A stretch of 36,211 nt of DNA from Solirubrobacterales bacterium (GTDB lineage: Bacteria > Actinomycetota > Thermoleophilia > Solirubrobacterales > Solirubrobacteraceae). The stretch covers positions 1 to 36,211 of the forward strand of contig JAFAXX010000014.1 in the NCBI GenBank assembly GCA_019240655.1, given 5' to 3'. The position numbers and the translations under genes are program-made. The notes under the pieces are model-generated. The model worked only from the letters and a program-made list of their open reading frames with translations, was not told the origin of the DNA and searched no databases. This document shows positions 2,614 through 26,726 of this stretch, piece by piece (position 1 is the stretch's first letter; the number at the start of each line of letters is the position of its first letter).

Positions 2614-2631
2614 AAGGTCAGGCTAACGCAT
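2613..2631. promoter_or_regulatory. Candidate DtxR/MntR-family operator
   Basis: The 19-bp stretch centred on AAGGTCAGGCTAACGCA matches 13 of 19 positions of the DtxR/IdeR-type box (TTAGGTTAGGCTAACCTAA). It lies between the divergent CDF and mntR genes. On the minus strand a perfect TTGACA (2636 to 2631) abuts it, so the box would sit just downstream of that -35 element, though no good -10 follows. The match is by eye and the assignment is inferred from the neighbouring regulator. Confidence 0.5.
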
Positions 2632-2676
2632 GTCAACGGCGCGAAAGGCGTGAGCCAAAGAAAGATACTTGCCGGA

Positions 2677-2705
2677 TTGATAGGCAGAGCTTGGCATGCC
2701 ATAAT
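2677..2705 (+). promoter_or_regulatory. Promoter of mntR-mntH
   Basis: TTGATA at 2677-2682 and CATAAT at 2700-2705 are separated by exactly 17 bp, a good housekeeping-type promoter. Only seven bases lie between the -10 element and ATG 2713, so the transcript should begin at or next to the start codon (leaderless). A perfect 10-bp palindrome, TGGCATGCCA (2692-2701), overlaps the -10 and could be a second operator. Confidence 0.6.
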
Positions 2706-2712
2706 CTTTTCT

Positions 2713-3399
2713 ATGGCGGTGGTCGAGGCGGTTTCTGCGCATGTTCAGGATTACGCGAAGGCGGTGTACGTGCTGGAGGCTCGTGAATGCGCACCGGTCT
2801 CGACGACCGAGCTGGCCGACCGGTTGGGCGTGACGCCGGGGTCGGTGTCCGGGATGCTGCGCAAGCTCGCCGATCTGCATCTGGTCGAGCACGAGCCCTA
2901 TCGCGGCGTGCGGCTCACCGCCCAGGGGCGCCGGGTGGCGCTCGAGGTGCTGCGCCACCACCGGCTGATCGAGCTGTTCTTGGCCAACGAGCTGGGGATG
3001 CCGTGGGATCAGGTGCACGCCGAGGCGGAGGTGCTAGAGCACGTCCTCTCCGAGGACCTCGAGCGGCTGATCTCCGAGCGCCTCGGGGAACCGACCATGG
3101 ATCCGCACGGCGACCCCATCCCTTCGCGCGAGTTTGAGATCGACGAGGGATACACCCGTAGCCTGGAGGAGCTCCCGCCCGGTACGACCGGGCGGTTCGT
3201 GCGTATCTCGGATTCCGATCCGAAGATGCTCCGGTACTTGGCTGAGAACGGGATCGGGCTCGCTGAGTGCCTGGAGGTGACCGGCCGCCAGCCGTTCGGC
3301 GGTCCGGTGTTCGTTCGTTTCGGCGAGCGGGAGCTGCCGCTCGGCGGCGAGCTCGCGCGCGCGATGCGGATTGAAGTCGACGCCGAACCAGCACGATGA
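2713..3399 (+). CDS. mntR: DtxR-family metalloregulator, MntR-like
   Basis: A 228-residue metal-dependent transcriptional regulator. It has an N-terminal winged helix (about residues 10-70), a dimerisation/metal-binding domain (about 75-140) and a C-terminal FeoA/SH3-like domain (about 155-222). Candidate metal ligands by motif alignment are Asp13, His83, Glu87, His102, Glu106, Glu109 and His110. Asp13 and Glu106 stand where iron-sensing DtxR has Met10 and Cys102, and where Bacillus MntR has Asp8 and Glu99. This predicts manganese sensing. An earlier in-frame GTG at 2650 is rejected because it lies upstream of the predicted transcription start. The stop overlaps the next gene, an Nramp transporter, by ATGA, which supports the Mn role. 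Confidence 0.85.
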   Translation: MAVVEAVSAHVQDYAKAVYVLEARECAPVSTTELADRLGVTPGSVSGMLRKLADLHLVEHEPYRGVRLTAQGRRVALEVLRHHRLIELFLANELGMPWDQVHAEAEVLEHVLSEDLERLISERLGEPTMDPHGDPIPSREFEIDEGYTRSLEELPPGTTGRFVRISDSDPKMLRYLAENGIGLAECLEVTGRQPFGGPVFVRFGERELPLGGELARAMRIEVDAEPAR

Positions 3400-4739
3400 G
3401 TTCGAGCACGCTGAGGTCGTGGCGTCAGCAGCCCGCGCTTGAGGGCGCCGCCATCGAAGGCGCGGCGGTCGCGCTGCCGGACGCCGGCTCGGCTGGCCCC
3501 AGCGCGCTCGAGCGGCTGCTGTCCAGGGGCAGGCTGCGGGCCACGCTGTTCATGCTCGGCCCCGCGTTCGTCGCGTCGATCGCTTACGTCGATCCGGGGA
3601 ACTTCGCCACTAACGTGCAGGGCGGAGCCCAGTACGGCTATCTGCTGTTGTGGGTGGTGCTGGCCGCGAACTTGATCGCGATGCTGATCCAGTACCTCTC
3701 AGCCAAGCTCGGGATCGCCACCGACAACAACCTCCCGGAAACGATCCGTGCCCGCTGGCCGCGGACGCTGACCTGGGGGATGTGGGTGCAGGCCGAGATC
3801 ATGGCCATGTCGACCGACATAGCCGAGTTCCTGGGCGCCGCGATCGGCCTGAACCTCCTCTTCCACGTTCCGCTGCTCCCGGCCGGCCTGATCACCGGCG
3901 TGATCGCGTTCGCGATCCTCGAGCTGCAGACCCGCGGCTTCCGCCGCTTCGAACTGGCGATCACCGCCCTGCTGGGACTCATCTTCCTTGGCTTCCTCTA
4001 CGAGACGCTGCGCATCGGCCCCTCCGCCAGCGGCTCGCTGCACGGTCTTATCCCCGGCCTGAACGGGACCAGCTCGCTGTACATCGCGGTCGGGATCGTC
4101 GGCGCGACGGTGATGCCCCATGTGATTTACCTGCACTCCGCGCTGACCCAGGGCCGCATGCCTTGCCGCAACGACCACGAGCGCAGGCGCGTGATCCGGT
4201 TCGAACGCTTCGACGTGATCATCGCCCTCGGCCTCGCCGGGATCGTCAACATGGCCATGCTCGCCGTCGCCGCCAAGCTCTTCCACACCCCCGCCCTCAG
4301 CGGACTTAGCACCATCCAACAGGCCCACGCCCAGCTCGGGCACCTCGTCGGTGGCACCGCTGCGCTTGCCTTCGCCGTCGCGTTGCTCGCCTCCGGCGCG
4401 TCCTCGTCCAGCGTCGGCACCTACGCGGGCCAGGTCGTGATGGCTGGCTTCATCAACTTCCGCATCCCCTTGATGCTCCGCCGCGCGCTCACCATGATCC
4501 CCGCGCTCACCGTGATCGCCGTCGGCATGGACCCCACCAACGCGCTTGTGCTCAGCCAAGTCGTTCTCTCCTTCGGAATCCCGCTCGCGCTCATTCCTCT
4601 GGTCGTCATGACCGGGCGGCGCGCAGTCATGGGCCGCCACGTCAACCGACCCATCACCAGCATCGTCGCCTGGGCCTGCGCCATCGCCATCTCGGCGATG
4701 AACGTCTTCCTCCTCTACCAGCAGTTCTTCATGAGCTAA
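3396..4739 (+). CDS. mntH: Nramp-family Mn2+/Fe2+ transporter
   Basis: A 447-residue proton-coupled divalent metal importer of the inner membrane. The TM1 metal-site motif DPGN is at residues 66-69, and the TM6 segment GATVMPH gives Ala237 and Met240, the standard Nramp metal ligands (Asp, Asn, Ala, Met). Eleven or so hydrophobic helices can be followed. The N-terminal 45 residues before TM1 are hydrophilic and somewhat longer than usual. The start ATG overlaps the stop of mntR (ATGA), so the two are co-transcribed and probably coupled. Self-limiting manganese uptake under MntR control is the expected logic. Confidence 0.93.
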   Translation: MSSSTLRSWRQQPALEGAAIEGAAVALPDAGSAGPSALERLLSRGRLRATLFMLGPAFVASIAYVDPGNFATNVQGGAQYGYLLLWVVLAANLIAMLIQYLSAKLGIATDNNLPETIRARWPRTLTWGMWVQAEIMAMSTDIAEFLGAAIGLNLLFHVPLLPAGLITGVIAFAILELQTRGFRRFELAITALLGLIFLGFLYETLRIGPSASGSLHGLIPGLNGTSSLYIAVGIVGATVMPHVIYLHSALTQGRMPCRNDHERRRVIRFERFDVIIALGLAGIVNMAMLAVAAKLFHTPALSGLSTIQQAHAQLGHLVGGTAALAFAVALLASGASSSSVGTYAGQVVMAGFINFRIPLMLRRALTMIPALTVIAVGMDPTNALVLSQVVLSFGIPLALIPLVVMTGRRAVMGRHVNRPITSIVAWACAIAISAMNVFLLYQQFFMS

Positions 4740-4906
4740 GACCCACGCGCGCCAGCGATCAGGCCAGGACCTGCTTCGCTTCCCCGGCAAGTATCCGCGG
4801 TTCAGATCGCTTCAGCTCCGCGGAGCGCGGAAGACAAGGCGACACCTGACGCTCGCGAGGGATACAGAGTCGAGGCAGCAGCCGGCGAGTCGGTCGAGGA
4901 TCTCCT

Positions 4907-5005
4907 AGGCGCTCGTGTGCCCGGGAAACCTAGGCGCTCGTGTGCCCGGGAAACCTATGCGCTCGTGTGCCCGGTCTCCTAGGCGCTCGTGTGCCCGGTA
5001 AACCG
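4907..5005. repeat. Four tandem 25-bp repeats upstream of the DUF2332 gene
   Basis: Units at 4907-4931, 4932-4956, 4957-4980 (24 bp) and 4981-5005 share AGGCGCTCGTGTGCCCGG, then AAACC or TCTCCT. They lie in the non-coding gap 4740-5042, directly upstream of the DUF2332 gene. There are no spacers, so this is not a CRISPR array. The array could hold repeated regulator sites or be a plain minisatellite. The rest of the gap (4740-4906) shows nothing recognisable. Confidence 0.9.
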
Positions 5006-10044: not shown

Positions 10045-11076
10045 TTACGCCCGCGCGGCGGGGACGGTCTCGTCGGCCAGGTCGTCGCCGGGCGCGCCGT
10101 CGACCGCCACCGGCTGCTTCTGAGCCGCCCGGCCTGCCTTGGAGCGCGGCCGTGGGTTCACGATCCGCGGCAGCTCACGCTCCAGCTTGGCGCGGAGCGG
10201 CTCCACGCGAGGCGAGAGGCACAGCCGGTCGCCGAGGTCTTCGAGCTTCTCGTCGAGTGTGAATCCCGGGCCGGTGGTGCACAGCTCCATCCGGCCGCCC
10301 GGCGACATCGCGTAGCAGGAGTCGAAGAAGTAGTGGTCGAACACGCGCGTGTACGGGACCGGTCCGCTGTTGGCGTAGTCGCGGTGCGCCTGGAGCTCGT
10401 CGTGGCTGCCGGCGCCGTAGGCGATGTGGTGCCAGACGCCGACGTGCATGTCGCCGCTCGGGCGATCCGGCGGGGGGCTGAAGTACCACCGGCTCTCGCC
10501 CTCGGTCCCTTGGAGCACGAGCCGGTATCCGTCCCGCCGAAAGCCCAGGTGCTCGGCTGCCGGCAGCGCATCATCGAGCGTGGCGAATGAGCGAACTCCC
10601 TCGATCCCGAGGATCCGGTGCTCGGCCGGGATGTCGTCGGCGACCGCCACGAGCGGCCGGTTGGGCGAGTCGGAGACCATCAGCTCGACCTCGTGATGCT
10701 CGGGGTCGTGGAAGACCAGGCTGTCGGGCTGAGTGGGATCGAGCCGGAGCATCTCGGAGTGGGTCTGGTTGGTGATCAGCCGATCCATCCAGTACTCGAG
10801 CGAGTCATAGGAGGCCACCCGCAGAACGAGGCGCTGGATGTCGCCGCGGCCGGGCTGGCCGGGCGGCGCCTCGGTGAATTCGAGGAACGTCACCACGCTC
10901 CCGGGATTGCCCTCCTCGTCTCCGAAGTAAGTGTGGTAGCGGAACGTCGTCTCGAAATTCAGCGTGTTCTTGACAAAGCGCAGCCCCATCACGCGGCACC
11001 AGAAGTCGACGTTGGTGATGACGTCGGCGGTGATCCCGGTGAAGTGATGGGGTCCGCGAAGCGTTGGGCCGGACAT
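10045..11076 (-). CDS. VOC-family ring-cleaving dioxygenase-like protein
   Basis: A 343-residue protein with two vicinal-oxygen-chelate halves, like the glyoxalase/ring-cleaving dioxygenase proteins of the MhqO type that act on hydroquinones or catechols with Fe(II). The likely 2-His-1-Glu metal site is His10 or His11 (RGPHHFTG), His216 or His217 (VWHHIAY) and Glu264 (GGRMELCT). The last 40 residues are a basic/Ala-rich tail outside the domain. The ATG at 11076 is preceded by AGGAG. It is divergent from the flavin monooxygenase gene and paralogous to the VOC protein at 12898. Its leader has a 36-bp duplication and a candidate operator over its -10. The substrate cannot be told from sequence. 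Confidence 0.8.
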   Translation of the reverse strand: MSGPTLRGPHHFTGITADVITNVDFWCRVMGLRFVKNTLNFETTFRYHTYFGDEEGNPGSVVTFLEFTEAPPGQPGRGDIQRLVLRVASYDSLEYWMDRLITNQTHSEMLRLDPTQPDSLVFHDPEHHEVELMVSDSPNRPLVAVADDIPAEHRILGIEGVRSFATLDDALPAAEHLGFRRDGYRLVLQGTEGESRWYFSPPPDRPSGDMHVGVWHHIAYGAGSHDELQAHRDYANSGPVPYTRVFDHYFFDSCYAMSPGGRMELCTTGPGFTLDEKLEDLGDRLCLSPRVEPLRAKLERELPRIVNPRPRSKAGRAAQKQPVAVDGAPGDDLADETVPAARA

Positions 11077-11158: not shown

Positions 11159-11178
11159 ATTGTATGGCAAACGTACGA
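11159..11178 (-). promoter_or_regulatory. Candidate -10 and operator of the minus-strand VOC gene
   Basis: On the minus strand TACAAT occupies 11164 to 11159, a good -10 element, about 85 bases before ATG 11076. It overlaps the imperfect palindrome TGTATGGCAAACGTACGA (plus-strand 11161-11178). A related TGTATG-N4-CGTACGA element occurs at 13949-13965. No convincing -35 is seen. Confidence 0.35.
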
Positions 11179-11522
11179 TCGCCGGAGTTGCGAATTCGGT
11201 CAGCGCTCCGCCTGCACCGGCCACCAGCCCTCGCAGCGGCGCTCGAGCACGTCGGCGATAAGTGCCCGACGGCGCCCGTCCTCGAGGTAGCGCGGAAACA
11301 CCTCGCGATCTGGGAACCGGGCCTGAAGGAGCGCGTCGGCCGTCCGGGGGCGATTCCCCGCGCAGGCTGAGGCTCTCCTCGACGAGGGCCGAGCCGGTCG
11401 CATACGGCGGATCCGCGGAGAAGTCCCGCACCGCCGGCATCAGCCTGGCCGCGGTCGTCGTCGGAGACGGGGCGCTTCAGGCCAAAGAGAACGATGTGGG
11501 TGCCTCATGGCCGTACGTACCG

Positions 11523-11554
11523 TTGTATGACGGTCATCCAGGAATCCGTATGAT
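11523..11554 (+). promoter_or_regulatory. Shared 18-bp operator and -10 of the flavin monooxygenase gene
   Basis: TTGTATGACGGTCATCCA (11523-11540) is the inverted copy of an 18-bp element also present at 12863-12880 and 17440-17457; only two positions vary across the three. Its core ATGACGGTCAT is palindromic, as expected for a TetR- or GntR-type dimer. TATGAT at 11549-11554 is a plausible -10, eight bases before ATG 11563 with no Shine-Dalgarno sequence between, so the gene may be leaderless. The -35 would lie inside the operator. Confidence 0.7.
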
Positions 11555-11562
11555 CGGCCCCA

Positions 11563-12816
11563 ATGAGCGCCGTAGACGAGAGAGAGCGAATCGAGCGCGT
11601 CGGTGATGAGCTGGTCGAGCGCGCCCGCGCCCTGCGCTCGCAGCTGATCCGCGAGCAGGCGGAGACCGAGGAGCGGGCCTACTACTCGGAGTCGGTTCAC
11701 CGGGCGCTCCTCGACGCCGGCTTCTACCGCATGTACGTGCCCCAGCGCTACGGCGGCCTCGAGGTCGACGTGCCGACGTTCATGCGGGTGGGCGTCGAAC
11801 TCGCGCGCGGCGACATGGGCGCCGCGTGGGGTGCCTGCCTGTCGGCCAACCACGCCCTGCAGGTCGGCTCCTGGTTCCCCGAGCGCCTCCAGGATGAGGT
11901 GTTCGGAAACGGGGACTTCCGCGCCGCCTCGGTGGCCGCGCCCTCTCTCAAGGCGACGCCCGAGGGCGGGGGGTACCGGCTCGAGGGCACCGTCGCGTAC
12001 TGCTCCGGGATCCCGTACTCCACCTACTACATGGGACAGGCGATGCTGCCCGGCACAAATTCGCGCGGAATGCCGCGGGTGGCGCTGTTCGTGGCGCCGC
12101 GCTCGGCGTTCACCCAACTCGACGATTGGGGCGACACACTCGGGCTCAAGGGCACGGGGTCACACTCGATCCGCTTCGACGGCGCCCACGTCCCCGCCCA
12201 CTACGTTCTCGAAGACGTGAACATGATCGACGTCCCGGTGGAGAACGGCACGCCAGGCTTGACGCTGCACGGGAACCCGATGTACTGCGGGCGCGCGCTC
12301 GTGATCTTCACCCTGTCGCTGGCCTGCACCCTCGTCGGCGGCGCTTACAACGCGCTCGAGGAGTACGGCAACTGGGCGCTCGAGAAGCCGACACCGCTGC
12401 CGCCATTCGGGCCCCGGTACCGGGATCCCGATTTCCAACGCTGGTACGGCGCCGCGTTCGTGAAGATTCAGGCGGCCGAGGCGGCGATGATGCGTTGCGC
12501 CGGGCTCCACATGCAGGCGTGCCGTCTCAACGCCAGCGGCGAGCGGCCCTACACCTGGGCCGAGGACGCGCGGCTGGCGGCGATCGCCCGCGAGGTGATG
12601 ATCCAGACCTGGGAGGCCGTCGATCAGCACCTGCTGCGGACAATCGGCGCGAGCGCGATCAAGAACGGCGAGCGCTTCGAGCGCCTGTTCCGGGACTTGG
12701 CCACCGCGGCGGCGCACCGCAACACCCAGCTGCGCGAGGATTTCTTCCGCCAGCTCGGGGCGATCGAGCTCGGCGTCCCGTATCCCAGCCCGGCTGGCAC
12801 GTACCCGCCAGGGTAA
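11563..12816 (+). CDS. Acyl-CoA-dehydrogenase-fold flavin monooxygenase (HsaA-like)
   Basis: A 417-residue protein of the acyl-CoA dehydrogenase superfamily. The sequence type, with the N-terminal FYRMYVPQRYGGLEVD block, the middle domain containing EGTVAYCSGIPYS and a four-helix C-terminal domain, fits group D two-component flavin monooxygenases such as HsaA, which hydroxylate phenolic rings with reduced flavin from a partner reductase. A true acyl-CoA dehydrogenase remains possible, as the catalytic base is not obvious. No flavin reductase gene is found next to it. It begins the plus-strand catabolic cluster, is divergent from one ring-cleavage-type VOC protein and precedes a second one, which fits hydroxylation followed by ring opening. 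It carries the shared operator. Confidence 0.75.
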   Translation: MSAVDERERIERVGDELVERARALRSQLIREQAETEERAYYSESVHRALLDAGFYRMYVPQRYGGLEVDVPTFMRVGVELARGDMGAAWGACLSANHALQVGSWFPERLQDEVFGNGDFRAASVAAPSLKATPEGGGYRLEGTVAYCSGIPYSTYYMGQAMLPGTNSRGMPRVALFVAPRSAFTQLDDWGDTLGLKGTGSHSIRFDGAHVPAHYVLEDVNMIDVPVENGTPGLTLHGNPMYCGRALVIFTLSLACTLVGGAYNALEEYGNWALEKPTPLPPFGPRYRDPDFQRWYGAAFVKIQAAEAAMMRCAGLHMQACRLNASGERPYTWAEDARLAAIAREVMIQTWEAVDQHLLRTIGASAIKNGERFERLFRDLATAAAHRNTQLREDFFRQLGAIELGVPYPSPAGTYPPG

Positions 12817-12834
12817 CGCCGGTCGCCGCAGGGG

Positions 12835-12880
12835 TTGACCGTCCCGCTCAACTCTGGCAATCTGAATGACTGTCATACAA
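12835..12880 (+). promoter_or_regulatory. Promoter with shared 18-bp operator for the second VOC gene
   Basis: TTGACC (12835-12840) and CAATCT (12858-12863) are separated by 17 bp. The operator TGAATGACTGTCATACAA occupies 12863-12880, starting at the last base of the -10 and covering the predicted transcription start. A repressor bound there would block initiation. An AAGGAGG Shine-Dalgarno sequence follows at about 12887-12893. Confidence 0.75.
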
Positions 12881-12897
12881 TCCGCGAAGGAGGAACG

Positions 12898-13875
12898 GTG
12901 CCGAACACAGGAACCATCCGCGGCACGCATCACCTGACGTTCTGCGTCGGAGGGGCCCAGGAGGACTACGACTTCCATGTCCGGGCGCTCGGCCTGAAAA
13001 GCGTCAAGAAGACAGTGCTGTTCGATGGCGAGATTCCCATCTACCACCTCTACTACGGCAACGAGATGGGTGACATCTCGACGCTCTTGACCGCCTTCCC
13101 GTACCGGCAGGCGGGATGGATGGGCAAGCGCGGCACCAACCAGGCCAAGCAGCTGAACCTGTCGATCCCCGAGGGCTCGGTCTCCTATTGGGCCGACCGA
13201 CTGAAGTCGTTCGAGGTCCAGGCGCAGGAAATCGAGCTTTTCGGTACACAGCGGCTCGCCTTCGCCCACCCGTGCGGGATTCCCTACCACCTGGTCGCCG
13301 CGTCCGGTCGCGACGATCGCAAGCCCTACGACGGCGGTGGCGTCCCCGCGGAGCACGCGATCCGAGGCGCCTACGGCACCACCACGTCGGTGCGCGAGGT
13401 CGGTGAAATGGACTTCTTCGTCACCGAGGGGATGCGTGGCGAGCTGGTCTCATCCGAGGGGGCCCACCACCAGTACCGAATTGGGACGGAGGAGGGCTAC
13501 GGCCGGATGCTCGAGCTCGTCGAGGAGCCAGACCTGCCACAGGGCACCTGGCACTTCGGCGAGGGGACGATCCACCATCAGGCCTTCGACGTGGTCTCCG
13601 AGGACAATCAGCAGGACGTCAAGGACTGGATCGTCGGCCTGGGCTTCACCGACGTCTCGGAGCCCAAGGACCGCGGGTACTTCTTCTCGATGTACTGCCG
13701 GAGCCCTGGCGGGTTGCTGGTCGAACTGGCCTACTCGCACTCCCAGGGCTTCCTCATCGACGAGGGCGCCGACGAGCTCGGCACGCACATGTGCATCCCG
13801 CCCCACTGGGAGCATCGCCGCGGCGAGATCGCGCAGCTCGAGCCGATCGACACCGTGGAGACGGTGGTGGCCTAG
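12898..13875 (+). CDS. VOC-family extradiol dioxygenase-like protein
   Basis: A 325-residue two-domain vicinal-oxygen-chelate protein, paralogous to the one at 10045. The likely metal ligands are His11 or His12 (RGTHHLTF), His226 or His227 (TIHHQAF) and Glu276 (LLVELAY). The fold and residues match Fe(II)- or Mn(II)-dependent ring-cleaving dioxygenases; a glyoxalase-type isomerase is the other option. The start at GTG 12898 is fixed by the AAGGAGG site a few bases before it and by the promoter, which excludes an in-frame GTG at 12835. It is 120 bp from the following CMD gene, with a strong GC hairpin between them. It is expected to act after the upstream monooxygenase. Confidence 0.82.
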   Translation: MPNTGTIRGTHHLTFCVGGAQEDYDFHVRALGLKSVKKTVLFDGEIPIYHLYYGNEMGDISTLLTAFPYRQAGWMGKRGTNQAKQLNLSIPEGSVSYWADRLKSFEVQAQEIELFGTQRLAFAHPCGIPYHLVAASGRDDRKPYDGGGVPAEHAIRGAYGTTTSVREVGEMDFFVTEGMRGELVSSEGAHHQYRIGTEEGYGRMLELVEEPDLPQGTWHFGEGTIHHQAFDVVSEDNQQDVKDWIVGLGFTDVSEPKDRGYFFSMYCRSPGGLLVELAYSHSQGFLIDEGADELGTHMCIPPHWEHRRGEIAQLEPIDTVETVVA

Positions 13876-13888
13876 CCGCCTCGGCGTC

Positions 13889-13923
13889 TCGCCGCCGCCC
13901 TGCACATCGTGGGGCGGCGGCGA
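13889..13923. terminator. Strong GC hairpin between VOC and CMD genes
   Basis: TCGCCGCCGCCC (13889-13900) is the perfect reverse complement of GGGCGGCGGCGA (13912-13923), with an 11-base loop. It lies 14 bp after the VOC stop codon. There is no T-run, so it may be a GC-type terminator, an attenuator or an mRNA-stabilising hairpin. Confidence 0.55.
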
Positions 13924-13948
13924 ACCCCGCGGTGCGGCTGGACGCGTC

Positions 13949-13965
13949 TGTATGTCGTCGTACGA
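13949..13965. promoter_or_regulatory. Candidate operator-like element before the CMD gene
   Basis: TGTATGTCGTCGTACGA resembles the element over the -10 at 11161-11178 (TGTATG, 4-5 bases, CGTACGA). It lies 30 bp upstream of ATG 13996. It is a weak, by-eye match. Confidence 0.25.
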
Positions 13966-13995
13966 AGCCCCTCAGAGCCCGGAGATGCCCCCGAT

Positions 13996-14409
13996 ATGAA
14001 TGACAAGACGATGTTCGAGACCGGGATGCAGACGCGCCGTGAGGTCCTTGGGGCAGAGCACGTCGACCGGTCGCTGGCCCAGGCCAGCGACTTCTCACGA
14101 CCGCTGCAGGAGCTCGTCACCGAGTACTGCTGGGGCACCGTGTGGTCGCGCCCGGGGCTCGACCGCAGGACCCGCAGCCTGATCAACATCGCGATGCTCA
14201 CCGCCCTCGGACGCCGGCACGAATTGACGATCCACGTACGCGGGGCGCTGACCAACGGCGTCACACCCGAGGAGATCCAGGAGGCGCTCTTGCAGACGGC
14301 GATCTATTGCGGCGTGCCGGCGGCGATGGATGCGCAGCGGACCGCCGAGGCGGTCCTGATCGAGCAGGAGGCGATCGCCGGCGGCAACGGTCGCGGCGAC
14401 ACGGCATGA
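13996..14409 (+). CDS. Carboxymuconolactone decarboxylase family protein (PcaC-like)
   Basis: A 137-residue protein of the CMD family. The stretch ELTIHVRGALTNGVTPEEIQ with LLQTAIYCGVPAAMDA is the hallmark of gamma-carboxymuconolactone decarboxylase (PcaC), which converts carboxymuconolactone to an enol-lactone in the protocatechuate branch. The redox CxxC of AhpD-type members is absent, favouring decarboxylase or hydrolase chemistry. ATG 13996 is taken as the start; the in-frame extension upstream runs through the hairpin and is unlikely. It is the first gene of a five-gene run, each joined to the next by a 4-base stop-start overlap. Its exact substrate depends on the unidentified pathway. 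Confidence 0.83.
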   Translation: MNDKTMFETGMQTRREVLGAEHVDRSLAQASDFSRPLQELVTEYCWGTVWSRPGLDRRTRSLINIAMLTALGRRHELTIHVRGALTNGVTPEEIQEALLQTAIYCGVPAAMDAQRTAEAVLIEQEAIAGGNGRGDTA

Positions 14410-15236
14410 GCGCCGGCGCGCCGTCGTACCGCGTGTTGGCGGTGCGCTATGCCGAGCGCGAGACGACCTACGTCGACGCCTATTACCGGTGGCCGAGCTA
14501 CGGCGAACCCGACGGTCCCCTGGCCATGAGCTACTACTTCTGGGTGCTCGTGCCGCTTCACGACCCCGGCGCGCCACCGATCGTCGTCGACTGCGGCTTC
14601 GATCCCGAGCGCGGGGCGCGCATGGGCCGCCGCTGCCTGTGCACCCCGGCCGACGCGCTCGACCGCTTGGGCGTCGACCCGGCGGCCGTCGAGCTCCTCC
14701 CGGTCAGCCACATCCACTACGACCATGTCGGCAACCTCCAGCTGTTCGCGAACGCGCGGTTGCCCGTCGCGCGTGCCGAGTTCGAGTTCTGGACGGCCGA
14801 CCCAGTCGCGCAGCGGGAGCAGTTCGCCGGCCACGCCGACCCCGAAGGGATCGAGCGACTGCGCCGGGCCGCGATCCAGGGCCGCCTGCAGCTGATCGAC
14901 GATCGGGCGGAGCTCGCGCCGGGCCTCACCGCGATTCGCGTCGGCGGCCACGCCCCCGGGCAGCTCATCTTCGAGGTGGCGGGCGAGCACGGGCCCGTCG
15001 TCCTCGCCTCGGACGCGATCCACTACTACGAGGAGCTGCGTCGCCGGCGTCCGTTTGCGGTCTTCGCCGACCTGGCCGACATGTACCGCGCCTATGAGCG
15101 GCTGACCGGCTACGCCGACGCCGGGGCGCTGGTCGTTCCCGGCCATGATCCCCTGGTCATGGATCGCTTCCCGCGCGTCGACGGCGAGGCGGCCGATCTT
15201 GCCGTCTGCGTCACCGACTCCAGGAGCTCAACGTGA
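14406..15236 (+). CDS. MBL-fold lactonase-like hydrolase
   Basis: A 276-residue metallo-beta-lactamase-fold enzyme of the N-acyl-homoserine lactonase-like group. All zinc ligands are visible: HIHYDH (His102, His104, Asp106, His107), His182 in GGHAPGQ, Asp203 in LASDAIH, and His247 in VPGHDP. Such enzymes open lactones. In this setting, between two CMD-type proteins, hydrolysis of a muconolactone-like ring-cleavage product is more likely than quorum quenching, but that is inference. The start overlaps the CMD stop (ATGA), and the stop overlaps the next gene (GTGA). Confidence 0.82.
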   Translation: MSAGAPSYRVLAVRYAERETTYVDAYYRWPSYGEPDGPLAMSYYFWVLVPLHDPGAPPIVVDCGFDPERGARMGRRCLCTPADALDRLGVDPAAVELLPVSHIHYDHVGNLQLFANARLPVARAEFEFWTADPVAQREQFAGHADPEGIERLRRAAIQGRLQLIDDRAELAPGLTAIRVGGHAPGQLIFEVAGEHGPVVLASDAIHYYEELRRRRPFAVFADLADMYRAYERLTGYADAGALVVPGHDPLVMDRFPRVDGEAADLAVCVTDSRSST

Positions 15237-15997
15237 GCGAGACCACCGACATCGATCGACAGGCCCTGCGCGAGGCGTGGACGGAGGTGCACGGGCCTCC
15301 CAACGCAGCCGCCGAGCAGCTGCTGGAGCAGAACCCTCGCTACTTCGCGCGGGCGCTCGACTTCACCGCCCATGCCTGGCGCCGCGGGCCGCTCGCGCCG
15401 AAGGTCAAGGCGCTGATTCTGTTGGCGGTCGACAGCGCCGCCTCGCACCTGAACCGCGACGGCGCTGTCGACGATGTCCGCCGCGCGCTGGCGCTGGGGG
15501 CCTCTCCCACCGAGGTGCTCGAGACGCTCGAGCTGACCAGCACGATGGGCATCCACGCCGCCAACACCGGCGTGCCGATCCTGCTCGAGGAGCTCGCCGC
15601 GGCGGGCCGGCCGATCGACTTTACGCGTCCCCTGAGCGAACGCCAGGAGGAGATCAAGGCGCAGTTCACCGCGAAGCGCGGCTACTGGAACAGCTTCTGG
15701 GACGGCTTCCTGCGCCTCGATGCCGAGTTCTTCGCGACCTACACGGCGATGTCCTCGCACCCGTGGGAGCACGGAACGCTCGAGCCGAAGGTCAAGGAGT
15801 TCATCTACTGCGCGTTCGACGCGTCGGCGACGCACATGTTCGAGATCGGCCTGCGCCAGCACATCGCCAATGCGATCCGCTACGGAGCCACCGCGGAGGA
15901 GTTGATGGAGGTGTTCGAGCTCGCCAGCGGGATCGGGATCGAGTCCTTCGCGTTGGCCCTGCCCGCGCTGCGCGAGGCGGTGGAGGCCGCCCAATGA
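15233..15997 (+). CDS. Double-domain CMD/AhpD-like protein
   Basis: A 254-residue protein with two tandem CMD-like domains, about residues 45-125 (LAPKVKALILLAVDSAASHL) and 155-245 (LEPKVKEFIYCAFDASATHM). The two share the pattern PKVK-(9 or more)-D-x2-A-xHx. No CxxC is present. Such proteins are annotated as carboxymuconolactone decarboxylases and occur in catabolic operons; the reaction is not known. It starts at GTG 15233, overlapping the MBL gene stop, and ends overlapping the dehydrogenase start (ATGA). Tight coupling suggests a complex or sequential steps with its neighbours. Confidence 0.78.
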   Translation: MSETTDIDRQALREAWTEVHGPPNAAAEQLLEQNPRYFARALDFTAHAWRRGPLAPKVKALILLAVDSAASHLNRDGAVDDVRRALALGASPTEVLETLELTSTMGIHAANTGVPILLEELAAAGRPIDFTRPLSERQEEIKAQFTAKRGYWNSFWDGFLRLDAEFFATYTAMSSHPWEHGTLEPKVKEFIYCAFDASATHMFEIGLRQHIANAIRYGATAEELMEVFELASGIGIESFALALPALREAVEAAQ

Positions 15998-16920
15998 CCG
16001 CGCCGCGCGCCGGAATCATCGGGACCGGAGCGATGGGCGGCCGGATGGCCGCGCGCGTGCACCAGGCCGGCGATCCGATTGTCGGCTACGACCGTGACGC
16101 CGAGCGCCTGGCGGCGAGCGGGATCCCCGCTGCGGGGTCGCTCGTCGACCTGGTACTCCAGGTCGACGTGGTGCTGCTCTCGCTGCCGGACAGCACGATC
16201 ATCGAGGCGGTCGTGCTCGGCGACGGCGGCGTGCTCGACCACGCGCGCACCGGCCAGGTCGTGGTCGATCTCTCGACCGCCTCACCAGAGTCCACGCGGC
16301 GGATCCATCGCGCCTTGGGCGAGAAGGGAGTGGAGTTTCTCGACGCCGGCATCTCGGGCGGCGCCAAGGCCGCCGATGCCGGAACCCTGACGATCATGGT
16401 CGGTGGCGACGCCGAGGCGCTCGGGCGGGTGCGTCCGGTCCTCGATCGCTTCGCGGCCAAGATCTTCCACATGGGCGAGAGCGGCGCCGGCCACACGGCC
16501 AAGCTGCTGAACAACTTCCTGAACGGCATCGCGCTCGCGGCCACCGCCGAGGTGATGGTGGCGGCCAAGCGCTCCGGCCTCGATCTCGAGCAGTTCCTGG
16601 ACGTGCTGAACTCGAGCACGGGGGTGAATTTCGCCACGCTCAACCGCTTCCCGCACATCGTCAAGGGCGACTATCTCGAGGGCGGTCTCACCGGCGGGCT
16701 GATGGCCAAGGACCTGCGGCTGTATCTCGAGCACGTGGCGCGGATCGGCGTGCCGACGTTCACGGGCCCCGCCTGCCTGGCCGCCTTCGAGGTCGCCAAC
16801 GCGCTCGGCTACGAGGATCAGATCTCCAACCGGGTGGTCGACGGGATCGGCGACCTGGCCGGCGGCGTGCGGCTGCAAGATCCGGTGGGCACTCGGACGA
16901 GGAGCCGCGAGGGAAGATGA
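15994..16920 (+). CDS. 3-hydroxyisobutyrate dehydrogenase-like oxidoreductase
   Basis: A 308-residue NAD(P)-dependent beta-hydroxyacid dehydrogenase. The Rossmann motif GIIGTGAMGGRMA is at residues 7-19, the substrate-binding DAGISGGAKAADAGTL block near 117-132, and the catalytic Lys170 in GHTAKLLNNF. Family members oxidise 3-hydroxyisobutyrate, tartronate semialdehyde and related compounds; the substrate here is unknown, but the operon suggests a hydroxyacid or semialdehyde produced by ring cleavage. The start overlaps the CMD stop and the end overlaps the cupin start, both ATGA. A paralogue lies at 22341. Confidence 0.87.
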   Translation: MTAPRAGIIGTGAMGGRMAARVHQAGDPIVGYDRDAERLAASGIPAAGSLVDLVLQVDVVLLSLPDSTIIEAVVLGDGGVLDHARTGQVVVDLSTASPESTRRIHRALGEKGVEFLDAGISGGAKAADAGTLTIMVGGDAEALGRVRPVLDRFAAKIFHMGESGAGHTAKLLNNFLNGIALAATAEVMVAAKRSGLDLEQFLDVLNSSTGVNFATLNRFPHIVKGDYLEGGLTGGLMAKDLRLYLEHVARIGVPTFTGPACLAAFEVANALGYEDQISNRVVDGIGDLAGGVRLQDPVGTRTRSREGR

Positions 16921-17315
16921 GGATCAACCACGGTAGGGTGGCCGGCGAGCCCTCGGAGGCGCGAGGCCCGACGTTCACCGGCACGGTGTGGGCGGAGCCG
17001 CTCCTGCGCGACGTGCCGGGCGTGGTCGTCAACACGGTGTTCTTTCCGCCCGGCGCGCGGACCCATTGGCACCGGCACCAGACCGGCCAGCTGCTGCTCG
17101 TCACCCATGGCCGTGGGCTTGCGGTCAACGAGTCCGGCGACGGCGACATCATCCTGCCCGGGGACGTGGTGTGGTTCGAGCCCGGTGAGCGCCACTGGCA
17201 CGGCGGTGCGCCCGACAGCTATCTCACCCACATCGCCGTCTCGCTGGGGGAGACCGAGTGGGAGCAGGCGGTCAGCGAGGACGACTACCGTGCCGCCGCC
17301 GAGCGGATCGCCTGA
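16917..17315 (+). CDS. Small single-domain cupin
   Basis: A 132-residue cupin. Motif 1, GARTHWHRHQTGQ, gives metal ligands His52, His54 and Gln58; motif 2, PGDVVWFEPGERHWHG, gives His93. Gln in place of the usual Glu, and the PGDVVWF..GE.HWHG signature, resemble the Mn-dependent cupins related to GtHNL (hydroxynitrile lyase) that are often found beside CMD proteins. It may act as a small dioxygenase, isomerase or lyase; its function here is unknown. It is the last gene of the coupled run from 13996. Downstream is a 280-bp gap with repeats and a new promoter. Confidence 0.82.
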   Translation: MRINHGRVAGEPSEARGPTFTGTVWAEPLLRDVPGVVVNTVFFPPGARTHWHRHQTGQLLLVTHGRGLAVNESGDGDIILPGDVVWFEPGERHWHGGAPDSYLTHIAVSLGETEWEQAVSEDDYRAAAERIA

Positions 17316-17380
17316 GCGCTCGCCGCCTGCACGCGCTCGGCGTGAGCTGGCCAGACGGCACGCTTGCGCTGCCGCGAGGA

Positions 17381-17420
17381 TCGACCGCTGAACGGAGGCC
17401 TCGACCGCTGAACGGAGGCG
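17381..17420. repeat. 20-bp tandem duplication upstream of a promoter
   Basis: TCGACCGCTGAACGGAGGCC (17381-17400) is followed directly by TCGACCGCTGAACGGAGGCG (17401-17420), differing at the last base only. It lies just upstream of the -10 and shared operator at 17435-17457, where a -35 element and activator sites would be expected. Confidence 0.9.
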
Positions 17421-17434
17421 GCGCAAGATGCCGG

Positions 17435-17457
17435 TATAGTGAATGACCGTCATACAA
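17435..17457 (+). promoter_or_regulatory. -10 and shared 18-bp operator of the alpha/beta hydrolase gene
   Basis: TATAGT at 17435-17440 is a good -10. TGAATGACCGTCATACAA (17440-17457) starts at its last base, exactly as at 12863. No good -35 lies 17 bp upstream, so an activator or extended promoter may be involved. The transcript would have a leader of about 150 bases. Confidence 0.7.
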
Positions 17458-17598
17458 GCCAAGGCCCGCTTGGCGGCGCGGGATATCGGCCCGCCGGCCG
17501 GGCGTGGGGAAAGTTGTCGGCATAGCCGGACTTTTTCGCCACGCCCAGGCCGGACGCGGCTGCCGAGCCCGCCCGGGAGTCGGGAGGAGGAGCGCTTG
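17458..17598 (+). promoter_or_regulatory. Structured 5' leader of the alpha/beta hydrolase mRNA
   Basis: GGGCGTGG (17500-17507) pairs with CCACGCCC (17539-17546), and the inner GGAAAG and CTTTTTC can extend the stem. Just before it another GC-rich stem (GGCG.CGGG with CCCG.CC, about 17471-17495) can form. No riboswitch class is recognised. A GGAGGAGG Shine-Dalgarno sequence follows at about 17582. Confidence 0.4.
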
Positions 17599-18675
17599 AT
17601 GCTGCGGTCGGTGCAGGAAATCGTGTCGTCGGCGCCGGTCACCACGTCGCGACGCGGCGCGTTCTGGGTGGGGATCGAGCCGTTTCCCGGACCGCTCGGC
17701 ACGGTCATGCGCGGGCCGATGTTCGTGGAGTGGGAGGCGCCGGCGGAGCCGCGGCCGGGGCCGCCGTGGGTGCTGGTGCATGGCGGCGGCGGCCAGGCGA
17801 CCGACTACACGGTCACCCCCGACGGTCGCCCCGGCTGGTCGCGGCTGCTGGTCGAGCAGGGCCATACCGTCTTTGTGGTCGACCGCCCCGGCCACGGCCG
17901 CTCGCCACACCACCCGGACATCCTCGGCCCGATGGGTCCGCAGCTCGGCTTCGAATTCCTGCGGCCGATCTTCGTCCCGCCCCCCGAGGGCCCGGACAGC
18001 AACCCCACCGCTCAGCTGCACACGCAGTGGCCGGGAGGACGCGAGCCCGGCGATCCCGTCTACGACCAGACGCTGTGCACCTCGGGCCCGCTGCTCGCCG
18101 ACCCGGCCGAGATGCACGCGCTCGAGCAGAGGCGACTGGCCGAGCTGCTCCACCTCGTCGGGCCCGCCGTCGTGGTGACGCATTCGGCCGGCGGCCCCGG
18201 CACATTCGCCGGTGTCGACGCCGGTGCCGACAAGGTGGCGGCACTCATCGCGATCGAGACGCTGGGGCCGCCCTTCGCCCAGCGGCCGGAGATGGGTCTC
18301 GACATGGTTTGGGGCCTGGCCTGCGCGCCGATCGCCTACGACCCGCCGGTCACCGATCCCTCCGAGCTGAAGACGGCTACCGAGGAACGCCCCGAGCTCG
18401 GCCCGATCCCGATCACGCTGCAACAGGAGCCGGCCCGGCGGCTCGCGAACCTGAGCCGCTTCCCGATCGCCGTGGTCACCGCCGAGGCGTCGATGTTCCT
18501 GGCCTACGACCGCCACCTGGTCGAGTTCCTGAAGCAAGGAGGCTGCGACGTCGAGCTCGTGCGCCTGGCCGACCACGGCGTCCACGGGAACGGGCACGCG
18601 ATGATGCTCGAGCGCAATCACGAGGAGGTGCTCGGCGTGCTCACCGACTGGGTCGCGCGCAAGCTCGGCGGCTGA
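17599..18675 (+). CDS. Alpha/beta hydrolase
   Basis: A 358-residue serine hydrolase. The oxyanion segment VHGGGGQATDY lies near residue 60, the block VVDRPGHGRSPHHPD follows strand 4, the nucleophile is the Ser in VVTHSAGGPG, and the catalytic His is in DHGVHGNGHAMM near the C-terminus. The family includes esterases, C-C bond hydrolases of meta-cleavage pathways and epoxide hydrolases; this one cannot be assigned further. The start at ATG 17599 is set by the GGAGGAGG before it. The in-frame ATG at 17443 lies inside the operator and before the likely transcript start, so it is rejected. Sharing the operator ties it to the ring-cleavage genes. Confidence 0.85.
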   Translation: MLRSVQEIVSSAPVTTSRRGAFWVGIEPFPGPLGTVMRGPMFVEWEAPAEPRPGPPWVLVHGGGGQATDYTVTPDGRPGWSRLLVEQGHTVFVVDRPGHGRSPHHPDILGPMGPQLGFEFLRPIFVPPPEGPDSNPTAQLHTQWPGGREPGDPVYDQTLCTSGPLLADPAEMHALEQRRLAELLHLVGPAVVVTHSAGGPGTFAGVDAGADKVAALIAIETLGPPFAQRPEMGLDMVWGLACAPIAYDPPVTDPSELKTATEERPELGPIPITLQQEPARRLANLSRFPIAVVTAEASMFLAYDRHLVEFLKQGGCDVELVRLADHGVHGNGHAMMLERNHEEVLGVLTDWVARKLGG

Positions 18676-23333: not shown

Positions 23334-23984
23334 GTGCCAGCCTCAGGATTCAGGTTGGGGATCTACGTGTTCAAGGATGCGGAGATCGTGGACTTCGCGG
23401 CTCCGTACGGCGTGTGGTCGGTGGCGCGACGCTATGACCCGGAGCTCGATGCGTTCCTGATCGCGGATGCGATGCGTCCCGTGCAGACGCAGGCGGGATT
23501 CACCGTGCTTCCCAACTACTGCTTCGAGGACAACCCGGCAATGGACGCCTTCCTGATTCCGGGCGGCTTTGGCACTCGGCAGGAGATGTACAACCGCCGC
23601 CTGCACGAGTTCATCGCCTCGCTACCCAACTCGTGTCTGTTGGCCAGCGTGTGCACCGGGTCGTGGGTGTACGGCCGTATGGGGTTGCTCGATGGCGTGC
23701 CGGCGACAAACCGCAAGGAGCCCGATCGGCTCGAGTCCGGTCCGTCGGGCAAGGTCCCGATCGATCGGCTGGCCGAGATCGCGCCGGCCTGCCGGGTCAG
23801 CCGGGCTCGGGTGGTGGACGCGGGGCGAATCGTGACCGCGGGCGGGATAACGTCGGGTATGGAGATGGGCTTTCACCTCCTGCGCCGGGCCGGCTACGCG
23901 GACGACCTCATCTCCGACGTCGCGCGGGTGATGGAGTACACCACCGCCTATGAGCTGTACCGCGACGACCTCGAGACCGCGTAG
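23334..23984 (+). CDS. DJ-1/PfpI family protein (isonitrile hydratase-like)
   Basis: A 216-residue protein with the DJ-1/PfpI fold of the GATase1-like superfamily. The nucleophile elbow is Cys107 in LASVCTGSWVYG, with Asp20 near the N-terminus (EIVDFAAPYGVWS), which is the arrangement in isonitrile hydratase (InhA) and in the enzymatic half of GlxA-type regulators. There is no AraC domain. ATNRKEPDRLE follows the elbow, where InhA-type proteins have a conserved T-x-H/N-W-like segment. GTG 23334 is preceded by GGGAGGAG. It is followed after 82 bp by the MetE-like gene on the same strand. Confidence 0.82.
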   Translation: MPASGFRLGIYVFKDAEIVDFAAPYGVWSVARRYDPELDAFLIADAMRPVQTQAGFTVLPNYCFEDNPAMDAFLIPGGFGTRQEMYNRRLHEFIASLPNSCLLASVCTGSWVYGRMGLLDGVPATNRKEPDRLESGPSGKVPIDRLAEIAPACRVSRARVVDAGRIVTAGGITSGMEMGFHLLRRAGYADDLISDVARVMEYTTAYELYRDDLETA

Positions 23985-24066
23985 ATGTCCGCCGCGGCCC
24001 ACGGCAGGAGTGCACGAAGTGCCGGCCACGCTGCGGTGTCGAAGATACCAGGAGGAAGGTGAGGTA

Positions 24067-25182
24067 ATGACGACCGTGTATCGCGCCGACACCGTCGGCT
24101 CGCTTCTGCGCCTGGATTATCTCGTCCGCGCCCGCACGCAGTTCGAGTCCGGTGAGCTCGAGCCCGCCGCCTACAAGGCGATCGAGGACCGCGCCGTCGA
24201 CCAGGTGATCGCCATGCAGGAGGGCGCCGGCCTCGACGTCGTCACCGACGGCGAGCTCCGCCGGCGGACGTTCATCGATCAGCTGCTGGAAGCGGTCGAG
24301 GGTTTGACCCCGGACCCCGCGGGCGAACCGAGCGATCACATCCCGGTTCCGTTCCACGACGAGGGCGGCTCGGAGCAGATCGTCTTCGCGATCCCGGCGT
24401 CGGTGACCGCCACGATCCGGCGCAAGCGGATGATGACGATCGAGGAGTTCGCGTACGCGCGGGCGCGCGCGCGGAGACCGGTCAAGGTGACGCTGCCCAG
24501 CCCGCTGATGCTGTTCCTGGCGTGGTCGCCGTCGCGGACGCGCGAGGCCTACAGCGACCCGTTCGATCTGTTCGCCGACGGGCTTACGCTGATGCGCGAA
24601 GAGGCTCAGGAGCTCGCGCGGATGGGCTGTCAGTACATCCAGGTCGATGCTCCCGACTTCGGGCAGCTGGTCGACGAATCCCAGCAGCAGGCCTGGAACG
24701 CGGCCGGGATCTCATTCGAGCGGGTGCTGACCGAGGGCGCCGACATGCTCAACGAGCTGGCGAGCGTTCCCGGGGTCACCTTCGGACTGCACATGTGCAA
24801 GGGCAACTACGACAGCCACTGGATCAGCGCCGGCGGGTACGACTCGGTGGCGGCCCGTCTATTCCCCCGTCTCGGGAACTACGACCGGATCCTGCTCGAG
24901 TACGAGAACGAGCGCTCCGGCTCGTTCGAGCCGCTCAAGGATCTCCCCGACGACAAGGTGGTCGTGCTCGGGCTCGTGTCATCGAAATTCGACGAACTCG
25001 AGTCCGCCGACGAGCTCATCTCGAGGATCGACGAGGCAGCCCGCTTCCATCCGCGCGATCAGCTCGCGCTTTCGACCCAGTGCGGATTCGCCTCCGCCGG
25101 GCCGGGGAATGCGATCAGCGAGGACGCCCAGGAGAAGAAGCTCCAGCTGGTGGCGGAGGCGGCTCACCGGGCGTGGCGCTGA
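24067..25182 (+). CDS. MetE C-terminal-like methyltransferase
   Basis: A 371-residue protein equivalent to the catalytic C-terminal barrel of cobalamin-independent methionine synthase. Candidate zinc ligands are His242 and Cys244 (GLHMCKGN), Glu278 or Glu280 (LLEYENE) and Cys339 (STQCGF). The short length and the catabolic surroundings argue for a paralogue that moves methyl groups from another donor rather than housekeeping MetE. Similar single-barrel MetE-like proteins are often near aromatic or organosulfur catabolic genes; that is general knowledge, not proof. ATG 24067 follows AGGAGGAAGG. The gene is convergent with the substrate-binding-like gene, with adjacent stop codons. Confidence 0.8.
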   Translation: MTTVYRADTVGSLLRLDYLVRARTQFESGELEPAAYKAIEDRAVDQVIAMQEGAGLDVVTDGELRRRTFIDQLLEAVEGLTPDPAGEPSDHIPVPFHDEGGSEQIVFAIPASVTATIRRKRMMTIEEFAYARARARRPVKVTLPSPLMLFLAWSPSRTREAYSDPFDLFADGLTLMREEAQELARMGCQYIQVDAPDFGQLVDESQQQAWNAAGISFERVLTEGADMLNELASVPGVTFGLHMCKGNYDSHWISAGGYDSVAARLFPRLGNYDRILLEYENERSGSFEPLKDLPDDKVVVLGLVSSKFDELESADELISRIDEAARFHPRDQLALSTQCGFASAGPGNAISEDAQEKKLQLVAEAAHRAWR

Positions 25183-26220: not shown

Positions 26221-26478
26221 ATGAGCGGCGGGACACGGCGACGAGTCGAGCCGGCGGCGCCGATCCGCGGCTTGGCTGGCCACCCGCGGCATCCGCTGCA
26301 CTCGCACCCGCTGCACCGGCTGCACCGGCTGCACGCGCTGCACCGGCTACACCCGCGACACCGGCTGCACTCGCGACACCGGCTGCACCCGCTAGACCCG
26401 CGGCAACCGCTGCACCCGCTACACCCGGCGCTGGCGGACGCCACGATCGGGTCGTCGCTCAGGGTGGGAGGCTCGTGA
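26221..26478 (+). CDS. Possible 85-aa His-Leu repeat protein
   Basis: ATG 26221 opens a frame of 85 residues whose middle is a three-residue repeat of the HRL/HPL/HAL kind (about 14 His in 45 residues), followed by an ordinary tail. Third-position GC in this frame is high. Its TGA overlaps the GTG of the next gene (GTGA), like the later junctions of this operon. No Shine-Dalgarno sequence is seen before ATG 26221, so it may instead be part of the leader. If made, it could bind metals; that is speculation. No family is recognised. Confidence 0.35.
   Translation: MSGGTRRRVEPAAPIRGLAGHPRHPLHSHPLHRLHRLHALHRLHPRHRLHSRHRLHPLDPRQPLHPLHPALADATIGSSLRVGGS
26286..26430. repeat. Degenerate 9-bp repeat array (CTGCACCGG)
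   Basis: The stretch consists of about 15 imperfect copies of CTGCACCGG and variants (CTGCACCCG, CGACACCGG). On the plus strand one frame reads His-Leu-Arg repeats; on the minus strand another reads Cys-Ser-Gly/Arg repeats. It lies directly upstream of the operon of the 83-residue protein and sigma factor. Confidence 0.85.
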
Positions 26479-26726
26479 GCGAGGTGATGCGGTTGCGCCG
26501 CGGCAGCCCACGATCACCGGGTCCGGCGGACGATCGGGCGCGCTGGGTTTCCTGGCGAGCCGAGCGGTTGCTCGCCGCCGGGTTCGCCTCGGCTCTCGCG
26601 CGGCAGCTGGCCGACGATGCGCGGGTGGACGTGCACGAACTGCTCGGGCTGATTGACCGCGGCTGTCCACCGCACTTGGCGGCGAGGATCGTGGCGCCGC
26701 TCGATTCGGATGAGGCGCGCGGATGA
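26475..26726 (+). CDS. Conserved-looking 83-aa protein upstream of a sigma factor
   Basis: An 83-residue protein whose core, WRAERLLAAGFASALARQLA with VDVHELLGLIDRGCPPHLAARI, is predicted helical, with one Cys. It looks like a short helical adaptor. I do not recognise the family with certainty. GTG 26475 is preceded by GGGAGG at good spacing. Its stop overlaps the sigma factor start (ATGA), so both are made together and it may help control sigma activity. Confidence 0.65.
   Translation: MSEVMRLRRGSPRSPGPADDRARWVSWRAERLLAAGFASALARQLADDARVDVHELLGLIDRGCPPHLAARIVAPLDSDEARG

Follow-up and report, generated by a model that had tools for sequence, protein, structure and literature searches.

A palindromic operator shared by three promoters of a Solirubrobacterales catabolic gene cluster, and its most likely GntR/FCD regulator

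Among the closest described parallels to the system considered here are GntR-family factors. AnsR of Corynebacterium glutamicum (GntR family, FadR subfamily) acts at an inverted repeat, ACCTGTCTGACAGCT, located at +5 to +19, and roadblock repression has been proposed (PMC9145765). LhgR of Pseudomonas putida W619, a GntR-family allosteric factor, protects TAGTCTGACAA in footprints, and TTGTCTGACAA at its own promoter (PMC8206213), and the operator consensus of the FadR subfamily is TNGTNNNACNA (PMC2230225). The locus analyzed is a 36,211-nt stretch of a Solirubrobacterales assembly (GCA_019240655.1, contig JAFAXX010000014.1; "the window", to which positions without a contig name refer), in which a palindromic element recurs ahead of three catabolic transcription units. 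That the element is a real operator, read in trans and in a manner of a familiar kind, is well supported, and its regulator is most likely a GntR protein with an FCD domain encoded on another contig, C134. Like AnsR, this protein would be a GntR/FadR-type repressor of catabolic genes; AnsR differs in having a 15-bp site at an asparagine operon, whereas the palindrome considered here is 19 bp long, has a single-base centre and stands at several dispersed transcripts of another kind of pathway. The LhgR motif TTGTCTGACAA also occurs before a C134 flavin reductase gene (C134:17699) and in a related genome, G079, but LhgR, which lies upstream of lhgO, responds to L-2-hydroxyglutarate. Among open-licence PMC papers, none was found on GntR with hydroquinone dioxygenase and PcpA, on a flavin reductase-GntR/FCD fusion, or on GntR/FCD combined with flavin-dependent monooxygenase, operator and hydroquinone; GntR with carboxymuconolactone decarboxylase, maleylacetate reductase, hydroquinone and operator returned a single paper, on indole response.

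The original prediction described an 18-bp element shared by three promoters, and all three copies are present: the pattern TGRATGACYGTCATACAA is matched with 0 mismatches at 11523-11540 (minus strand), 12863-12880 and 17440-17457 (both plus strand). Shuffling gave a mean of 0.01 matches and no case of three in 100 shuffles, and the window holds no further match at up to three mismatches. The core ATGACNGTCAT picks out the same three places alone, even at one mismatch (0.50 expected). The symmetric element is a 19-mer palindrome with a one-base centre, consensus TTGTATGAC-N-GTCATNCA, built on the symmetric core ATGAC-N-GTCAT. Written on the plus strand, the sites are O1 (TTGTATGACGGTCATCCAG, 11523..11541), centred 31 bp ahead of the ATG of a flavin monooxygenase gene; O2 (CTGAATGACTGTCATACAA, 12862..12880), centred 27 bp ahead of the GTG of a dioxygenase gene that leads a run of carboxymuconolactone decarboxylase (CMD) and lactonase genes; and O3 (GTGAATGACCGTCATACAA, 17439..17457), centred 151 bp ahead of the ATG of an alpha/beta hydrolase gene.

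Exact matches to TGNATGACNGTCATNCA in the whole assembly (4,061,231 bases in 191 contigs, 91.5% complete) are confined to the three window sites, the reversed-pattern control giving 0. None was found in the 145 other genomes of the family (146 searched, own alone positive), nor among loci L041-L149, where the own copy alone matches. At up to three mismatches the assembly contains 66 places against 27 for the control. Allowing two mismatches, as the original prediction proposed, leads to seven places among the matches listed; one, on C134, adjoins the GntR/FCD gene, and six (L004-L008, L010) fall in frames with coding-type GC3. The generalised half-site TYGTMWGACNRTC was found at six positions of the assembly, compared with one forward and none in reverse for the control. 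Three of the six are the window sites; the others are C134:12794-12806, C134:17697-17709 and C61:26040-26052, the last inside a coding frame.

Near matches to the operator cluster on C134, which holds two of the 12 FCD hits in the genome. The stand-alone protein encoded at C134:12971-13744 has 257 aa and carries both domains (Pfam GntR 5.5e-18, FCD 6.4e-22). Divergent from it, and starting at 12740, is a paralogue of the window monooxygenase with 52% identity. Between the two genes lies CTGCGTGATCGTCATACAA (C134:12788-12806; window-matrix score 18.8), centred 57 bp before the monooxygenase start; a second site, ATGTATGATTGTCTGACAA (region C134:17690-17709; window-matrix 15.5), precedes a gene for a flavin reductase-GntR-FCD fusion. 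Aligned orthologues of the stand-alone regulator share VSRTTIRE in the recognition region, followed by a near-identical helix and wing ending IPQKGA, so that one operator would be expected for all of them; the recognition helix differs in the 11 other FCD proteins of the genome that were aligned. These features make the C134:12971-13744 protein the most likely regulator of O1-O3.

A regulator encoded outside the window, with GntR among the guesses, is what the original prediction had foreseen, on the ground that the window has no TetR, GntR or MarR gene. No TetR_N or FCD hit occurs on the window's contig, and the 40 window ORFs covered by the Pfam scan (of 174 with at least 80 aa) yielded one DNA-binding regulator over cut-off, of DtxR/MntR type. 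The genome-wide regulator search covered the TetR_N and FCD families. The DtxR/MntR-type gene (2650-3399), whose product also gives sub-threshold MarR matches, is followed by an Nramp metal transporter gene (span 2650-4739), and 26723-27382 has a sub-threshold match to sigma-70 region 4.

Further evidence comes from following the regulator into other genomes. At E <= 1e-25, 10 of the 146 genomes of the family have a match to this GntR, the weakest at 34% identity; at E <= 1e-45, a match occurs in 8 of the 399 genomes of the class. The four gntR orthologues at 60-63% (G082, G086, G087, G088) all carry TYGTATGACGGNCATCCGA, its centre 17-23 bp ahead of the gntR start. In each case this palindrome lies in the gap that separates gntR from a divergently transcribed flavin reductase gene and is the best window-matrix match in 13.7-18 kb. 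In G396, TTGTATGACGGTCGGTCAG stands at -41 before gntR and is the top match (21.0 in 19 kb). Overall, five of eight foreign 300-bp regions upstream of gntR score at least 16, a level that 2000 symmetric permutations of the matrix never reached in more than two regions (mean 0.007). The palindrome is also carried outside the class. The Rhodococcus plasmids pGD02.2.2 and pLP337 (L243, L244) encode GntR proteins of 58% and 56% over 68% of the query, and pGD02.2.2 has TTGTATGATCGACATACAA (23.8) directly upstream of gntR, sites of 13.2 and 11.2 before its CMD and P450 genes, and a further match of 12.0, at 16116, at no such promoter-type place. The operator is conserved before the regulator's own gene in most orthologues, and before some linked operons.

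A blind matrix was built from six foreign sites and no site of the own genome, the identical G082 and G088 sites entering as one sequence. In the window it ranks O1 (26.8), O3 (24.7) and O2 (22.6) first to third, followed by 11160 at 17.1 and then nothing above 10.1; on C134 it places the gntR/monooxygenase site first (19.5) and the flavin reductase site second (13.6). The best background score was 15.7 in 1,243,546 bases of comparison DNA, from which the Acidimicrobiaceae record L057 was omitted because one of its sites had trained the matrix. Other loci of the own genome (136,338 bases) reached 17.0 at best, in the near-match locus L012, inside an open frame with coding-type GC3. The window matrix has one match of at least 16 in 1,256,754 positions of L041-L120; since L057 lies in that set and scores 16.4, the match is its own.

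These results bear on the possibility that another factor reads the sites, such as one of the 25 TetR-type proteins, the C134 GntR then resembling a partner by chance alone. Short-centre palindromes are common among TetR operators too, and one TetR locus (L021) has a match of 15.7. That match falls within a 297-aa open frame, about 0.9 kb away from the TetR domain, and the other 24 of the 25 TetR loci stay below 11 (window matrix, matches of at least 7 listed). Scanning all 25 produced no site near a TetR gene, and a TetR operator was rejected as a candidate. Moreover, the palindrome accompanies gntR orthologues into other families and Rhodococcus, and the foreign-site matrix finds the window sites blind. 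With TetR as the one other family scanned, a reader other than the C134 GntR is rated distinctly unlikely.

Several observations weigh against assigning the operator to this regulator. The best site near gntR in the own genome stands some 174 bp ahead of it and serves the monooxygenase gene that diverges from it, while a 13.6 match at gntR itself overlaps the first ATG of its frame. Because regulator and window are on separate contigs, they are linked in this genome by sequence pattern alone. G082, G086, G087 and G088 belong to one genus and are therefore not independent. The closest gntR (74%, in G079) has a half-site alone before it (4.3), better sites occurring elsewhere on G079 contigs C309 and C374 (17.1 and 13.2). 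With the window matrix, no site is recognised directly before gntR in G399 (1.7), and just 6.7 is reached in G046; the blind matrix, by contrast, finds 19.3 and 13.8 close before gntR in G046, and in G399 a match of 14.7 close to where the first gene of its run, for a binding protein, begins. In L057 the 16.4 site falls where two open frames overlap at their ends and so may not be intergenic, and R. qingshengii pLP337 scores 10.0 before gntR and 11.0 at most anywhere.

A further adverse result concerns the dioxygenase. The original prediction looked for conservation of the element ahead of orthologous genes, and for the dioxygenase this fails: none of 13 upstream regions has a site (best matrix score 6.0), L049 (strain label same as L048) and L055 (no upstream DNA) being omitted; the dioxygenase loci retrieved were the best 80 of 89 confirmed. 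The absence first seemed to refute an operator, a view overturned by following the regulator instead, before most of whose orthologues the site is found. Six of the 13 regions come from same-genus genomes, and in these six, for which gntR was checked, no gntR match occurs at E <= 1e-25 (drafts, mostly incomplete). None of the 27 genomes that share the genus with the own one has a match at that threshold, although in drafts absence is not proof; the dioxygenase is nearly full length at 72-82% in 6 of the 27 and in pieces in 2.

Linkage of gntR to pathway genes recurs in these relatives. In G396, G399 and G046, genes for CMD1, a 3-hydroxyisobutyrate-dehydrogenase-like (HIBADH-like) protein and the lactonase follow gntR in a row, which in G396 and G399 also holds CMD2, second HIBADH-like and cupin genes, whereas the flavin reductase gene is the sole pathway-type neighbour in G082, G086, G087 and G088. 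In L057 a single 14.6-kb stretch encodes the dioxygenase (52%), lactonase (46%), HIBDH (64%), CMD1 (69%) and GntR (63%). Its best site, TTGTATGATGATCATGCGA, lies where the HIBDH-CMD1-HIBDH2-gntR run begins. Two weaker, near-identical palindromes score 10.9 and 9.5; one precedes a hydrolase gene, the other a gene for a solute-binding protein that lies upstream of the dioxygenase. On pGD02.2.2 and pLP337, gntR occurs together with genes for CMD, NAD(P) oxidoreductase, maleylacetate reductase, lactonase, hydrolase and VOC proteins. As this regulator-linked form of the cluster occurs in the window's class, the Acidimicrobiaceae record and the Rhodococcus plasmids, the proposal can be tested in culturable Rhodococcus.

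Two related observations were made in passing. Rhizobiales plasmids that encode a GntR relative (43-46%) next to CMD and oxidoreductase genes have TTGTCTGACAA-type sites (L245:4724-4742, L246:6711-6737); this may be an earlier version of the switch. In G084, whose genome has a 42% GntR relative, CTGTCTGACAATCATACAG (L216:15406-15424; 21.1) lies outside any open frame of at least 60 aa and precedes a frame that by eye resembles a transporter binding protein.

Very probably, then, the repeat is the operator of the C134:12971-13744 factor, which would repress by blocking promoters and be released by a pathway ligand. A GntR/FCD dimer would bind the 19-bp palindrome; sitting over the core promoter or the start point, it would block the transcripts for monooxygenase, dioxygenase/CMD/lactonase and hydrolase; and a pathway compound, probably an aromatic acid or hydroquinone product held in the FCD domain, would release the repressor. 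The same factor probably also controls the monooxygenase paralogue and the flavin reductase gene of C134. Compared with the FadR-subfamily consensus TNGTNNNACNA, the stronger half of each window site, TTGTATGAC, fits at the first nine positions and lacks the final A; the fit is poorer for the opposite halves, CTGGATGAC, CTGAATGAC and GTGAATGAC.

Placement of the sites favors repression. Their centres are 17-41 bp before the start codon at the five strong foreign sites, compared with 31, 27 and 151 bp at O1-O3; at such distances the dimer would sit at the core promoter or slightly beyond it, as with AnsR. The original prediction had the element beginning at the last base of the -10 hexamer in two copies. 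By eye this holds for CAATCT (12858-12863) and TATAGT (17435-17440), and also for TACCGT (11518-11523) at the first site, but a consensus promoter scan prefers hexamers within 11527-11554 and 12854-12881 and finds none at the third site; given this disagreement, any start site placed here is tentative. The same regulator might instead activate, since the start sites are tentative and the consensus scan puts O1 over a possible -35. Such a role is unlikely on the measured distances: six of nine centres (G082, G086, G087, G088, O1, O2) fall 17-31 bp before the start codon, the remaining ones being at 41 (G396), 57 (C134 monooxygenase) and 151 bp (O3); this is on or past the core promoter, as described for AnsR (PMC9145765).

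The same sequences can be read as codons, and this too counts against an operator. On the plus strand ATGACGGTCATCCAG, ATGACTGTCATACAA and ATGACCGTCATACAA all spell Met-Thr-Val-Ile-Gln, with differences at third codon positions alone; the O3 ATG is open to the hydrolase in frame, and several weak genome matches (L189, L195, L197) by eye resemble the start codons of Met-Thr-Val proteins. A coding coincidence or a short leader peptide is nevertheless highly improbable. The O1 reading is in frame but meets a stop after 8 codons, ahead of the gene, and that of O2 is out of frame; inverting O1, the orientation of the original prediction, leaves fewer differences among the copies. In foreign sites the palindrome is retained while the peptide varies (Gln to Arg, Val to Ala or Gly, among others), all five tested being out of the gntR frame, and for this reason the operator reading was retained.

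The second GntR/FCD protein of C134, the flavin reductase-GntR-FCD fusion, could also be the regulator, in a redox-linked version of the control: it has both domains and a related site before its own gene. Its recognition helix is without the SRTTIRE motif of the gntR orthologues, as in seven of seven fusion proteins aligned, and where the operator adjoins the regulator in other genomes, that regulator is of the stand-alone type, so the fusion is very unlikely to be the reader of O1-O3. The fusion is encoded at C134:17771-18907 (L164:8772-9908) and has a paralogue at C80:14940-16010; others are in L224-L228. In all there are seven such proteins in six genomes, two in the own genome (399 searched). 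Loss of the motif from all seven suggests a sensor domain that stopped reading DNA, and the fusion is likely a regulated reductase for two-component monooxygenases. A more tentative and rather doubtful extension is that the pathway senses one chemical signal twice: at the shared operator, through the GntR/FCD repressor, and through an ex-repressor, devoid of a DNA-reading helix, that would act as allosteric sensor of the flavin reductase feeding the two-component monooxygenase, a reductase itself placed under the same operator. If so, the fusion would be an independently evolved GntR counterpart of the MarR-tailed reductase AbHpaC, a flavin reductase with a C-terminal MarR domain (PMC10816480). 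Both join a reductase to a transcription-factor-type domain; the domain is MarR in AbHpaC and GntR-FCD here, so the fusion is not a member of that type, although it may work similarly.

The genes served are those named in the original prediction, as judged by Pfam, NCBIfam and structure matches. Behind O1 (11563..12816, plus strand) is the oxygenase part of a two-component flavin-dependent monooxygenase of HsaA / HPAH C2 type with the acyl-CoA dehydrogenase fold; its best solved relatives are HsaA (2rfq, E 2.6e-24) and HPAH C2 (2jbr, E 4.1e-19), and as it falls below NCBIfam equivalog cut-offs its substrate is left unassigned. O2 precedes a VOC dioxygenase near PcpA (12898..13875, plus strand), which matches 2,6-dichloro-p-hydroquinone 1,2-dioxygenase (4huz) at E 3.1e-75 and MhqO (3oaj) at E 1e-40. 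Dioxygenases of the PcpA / MhqO type are controlled by LysR- and MarR-type factors, unlike the GntR/FCD factor proposed here. There follow, all on the plus strand, the CMD-family protein CMD1 (13996..14409), which exceeds the NCBIfam PcaC cut-off; a metallo-beta-lactamase-fold lactonase-like protein (14406..15236; Pfam, NCBIfam); CMD2, a second CMD-family protein (15233..15997; Pfam); the HIBADH-like NAD(P) oxidoreductase (15994..16920; Pfam, NCBIfam); and a cupin protein (16917..17315; Pfam). O3 precedes the alpha/beta hydrolase (17599..18675, plus strand; Pfam). In G079 (L202) and G081 (L204) the gene right behind the monooxygenase orthologue encodes a homologue of the hydrolase, an adjacency that would account for the window hydrolase having its own operator copy; L204 itself has no operator site, and G081 no gntR match at E <= 1e-25.

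Together these genes probably degrade an aromatic compound, and the work assigns a regulator and an operator to such a cluster. The operator also marks scattered genes that are likely of one pathway: two monooxygenase paralogues, a reductase, a hydrolase and a dioxygenase. The pathway core (dioxygenase, HIBADH-like, CMD, lactonase) is widespread beyond the window's class: SAR86-cluster, Pseudomonas and Paraburkholderia records (L063, L067, L072, L074, L075, L078, L092) have the dioxygenase with HIBADH-like, CMD and lactonase genes. LhgR has already been turned into a biosensor (PMC8206213); the same use is conceivable for a sensor of a hydroquinone-type pathway.

A fourth, weaker operator, not listed in the original prediction, is probable at 11160..11178 (TTGTATGGCAAACGTACGA, plus strand; blind matrix 17.1), ~93 bp before a leftward gene for a 343-aa VOC (glyoxalase/dioxygenase superfamily) protein (10045..11076, minus strand; Pfam). 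Its window-matrix score is just 9.9, and the counterpart region of L043, where alone conservation was checked, has no similar site. Palindromes of the form TGTATG-N4/5-CGTACGA had been considered at 13949 and 11161; the former is outside the window's eight best by the blind matrix, and the latter became this probable fourth site. In L043 (Candidatus Solirubrobacter pratensis; 418-3531) a 79% orthologue of the VOC gene and a different GntR-type gene (40% over part) are divergently oriented; nearby is a methionine-synthase-like gene that by eye resembles those in the window (23950-25182) and on C134.

No Rfam family reaches its gathering score in the window. The stretch 17447-17605, which separates O3 from the hydrolase gene, has an unusually stable fold (z -3.2) and contains a terminator-like hairpin at 17517-17529 (1.7 such expected in the scanned region); it is a possible attenuator. 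Just ahead of O3, 17381-17419 is by eye a tandem duplication of TCGACCGCTGAACGGAGGC with a 20-bp period. Short tandem arrays occur elsewhere in the window at 26277-26443 (period 9), 2408-2579 (33), 34648-34797 (30) and 4901-5004 (~25 bases).

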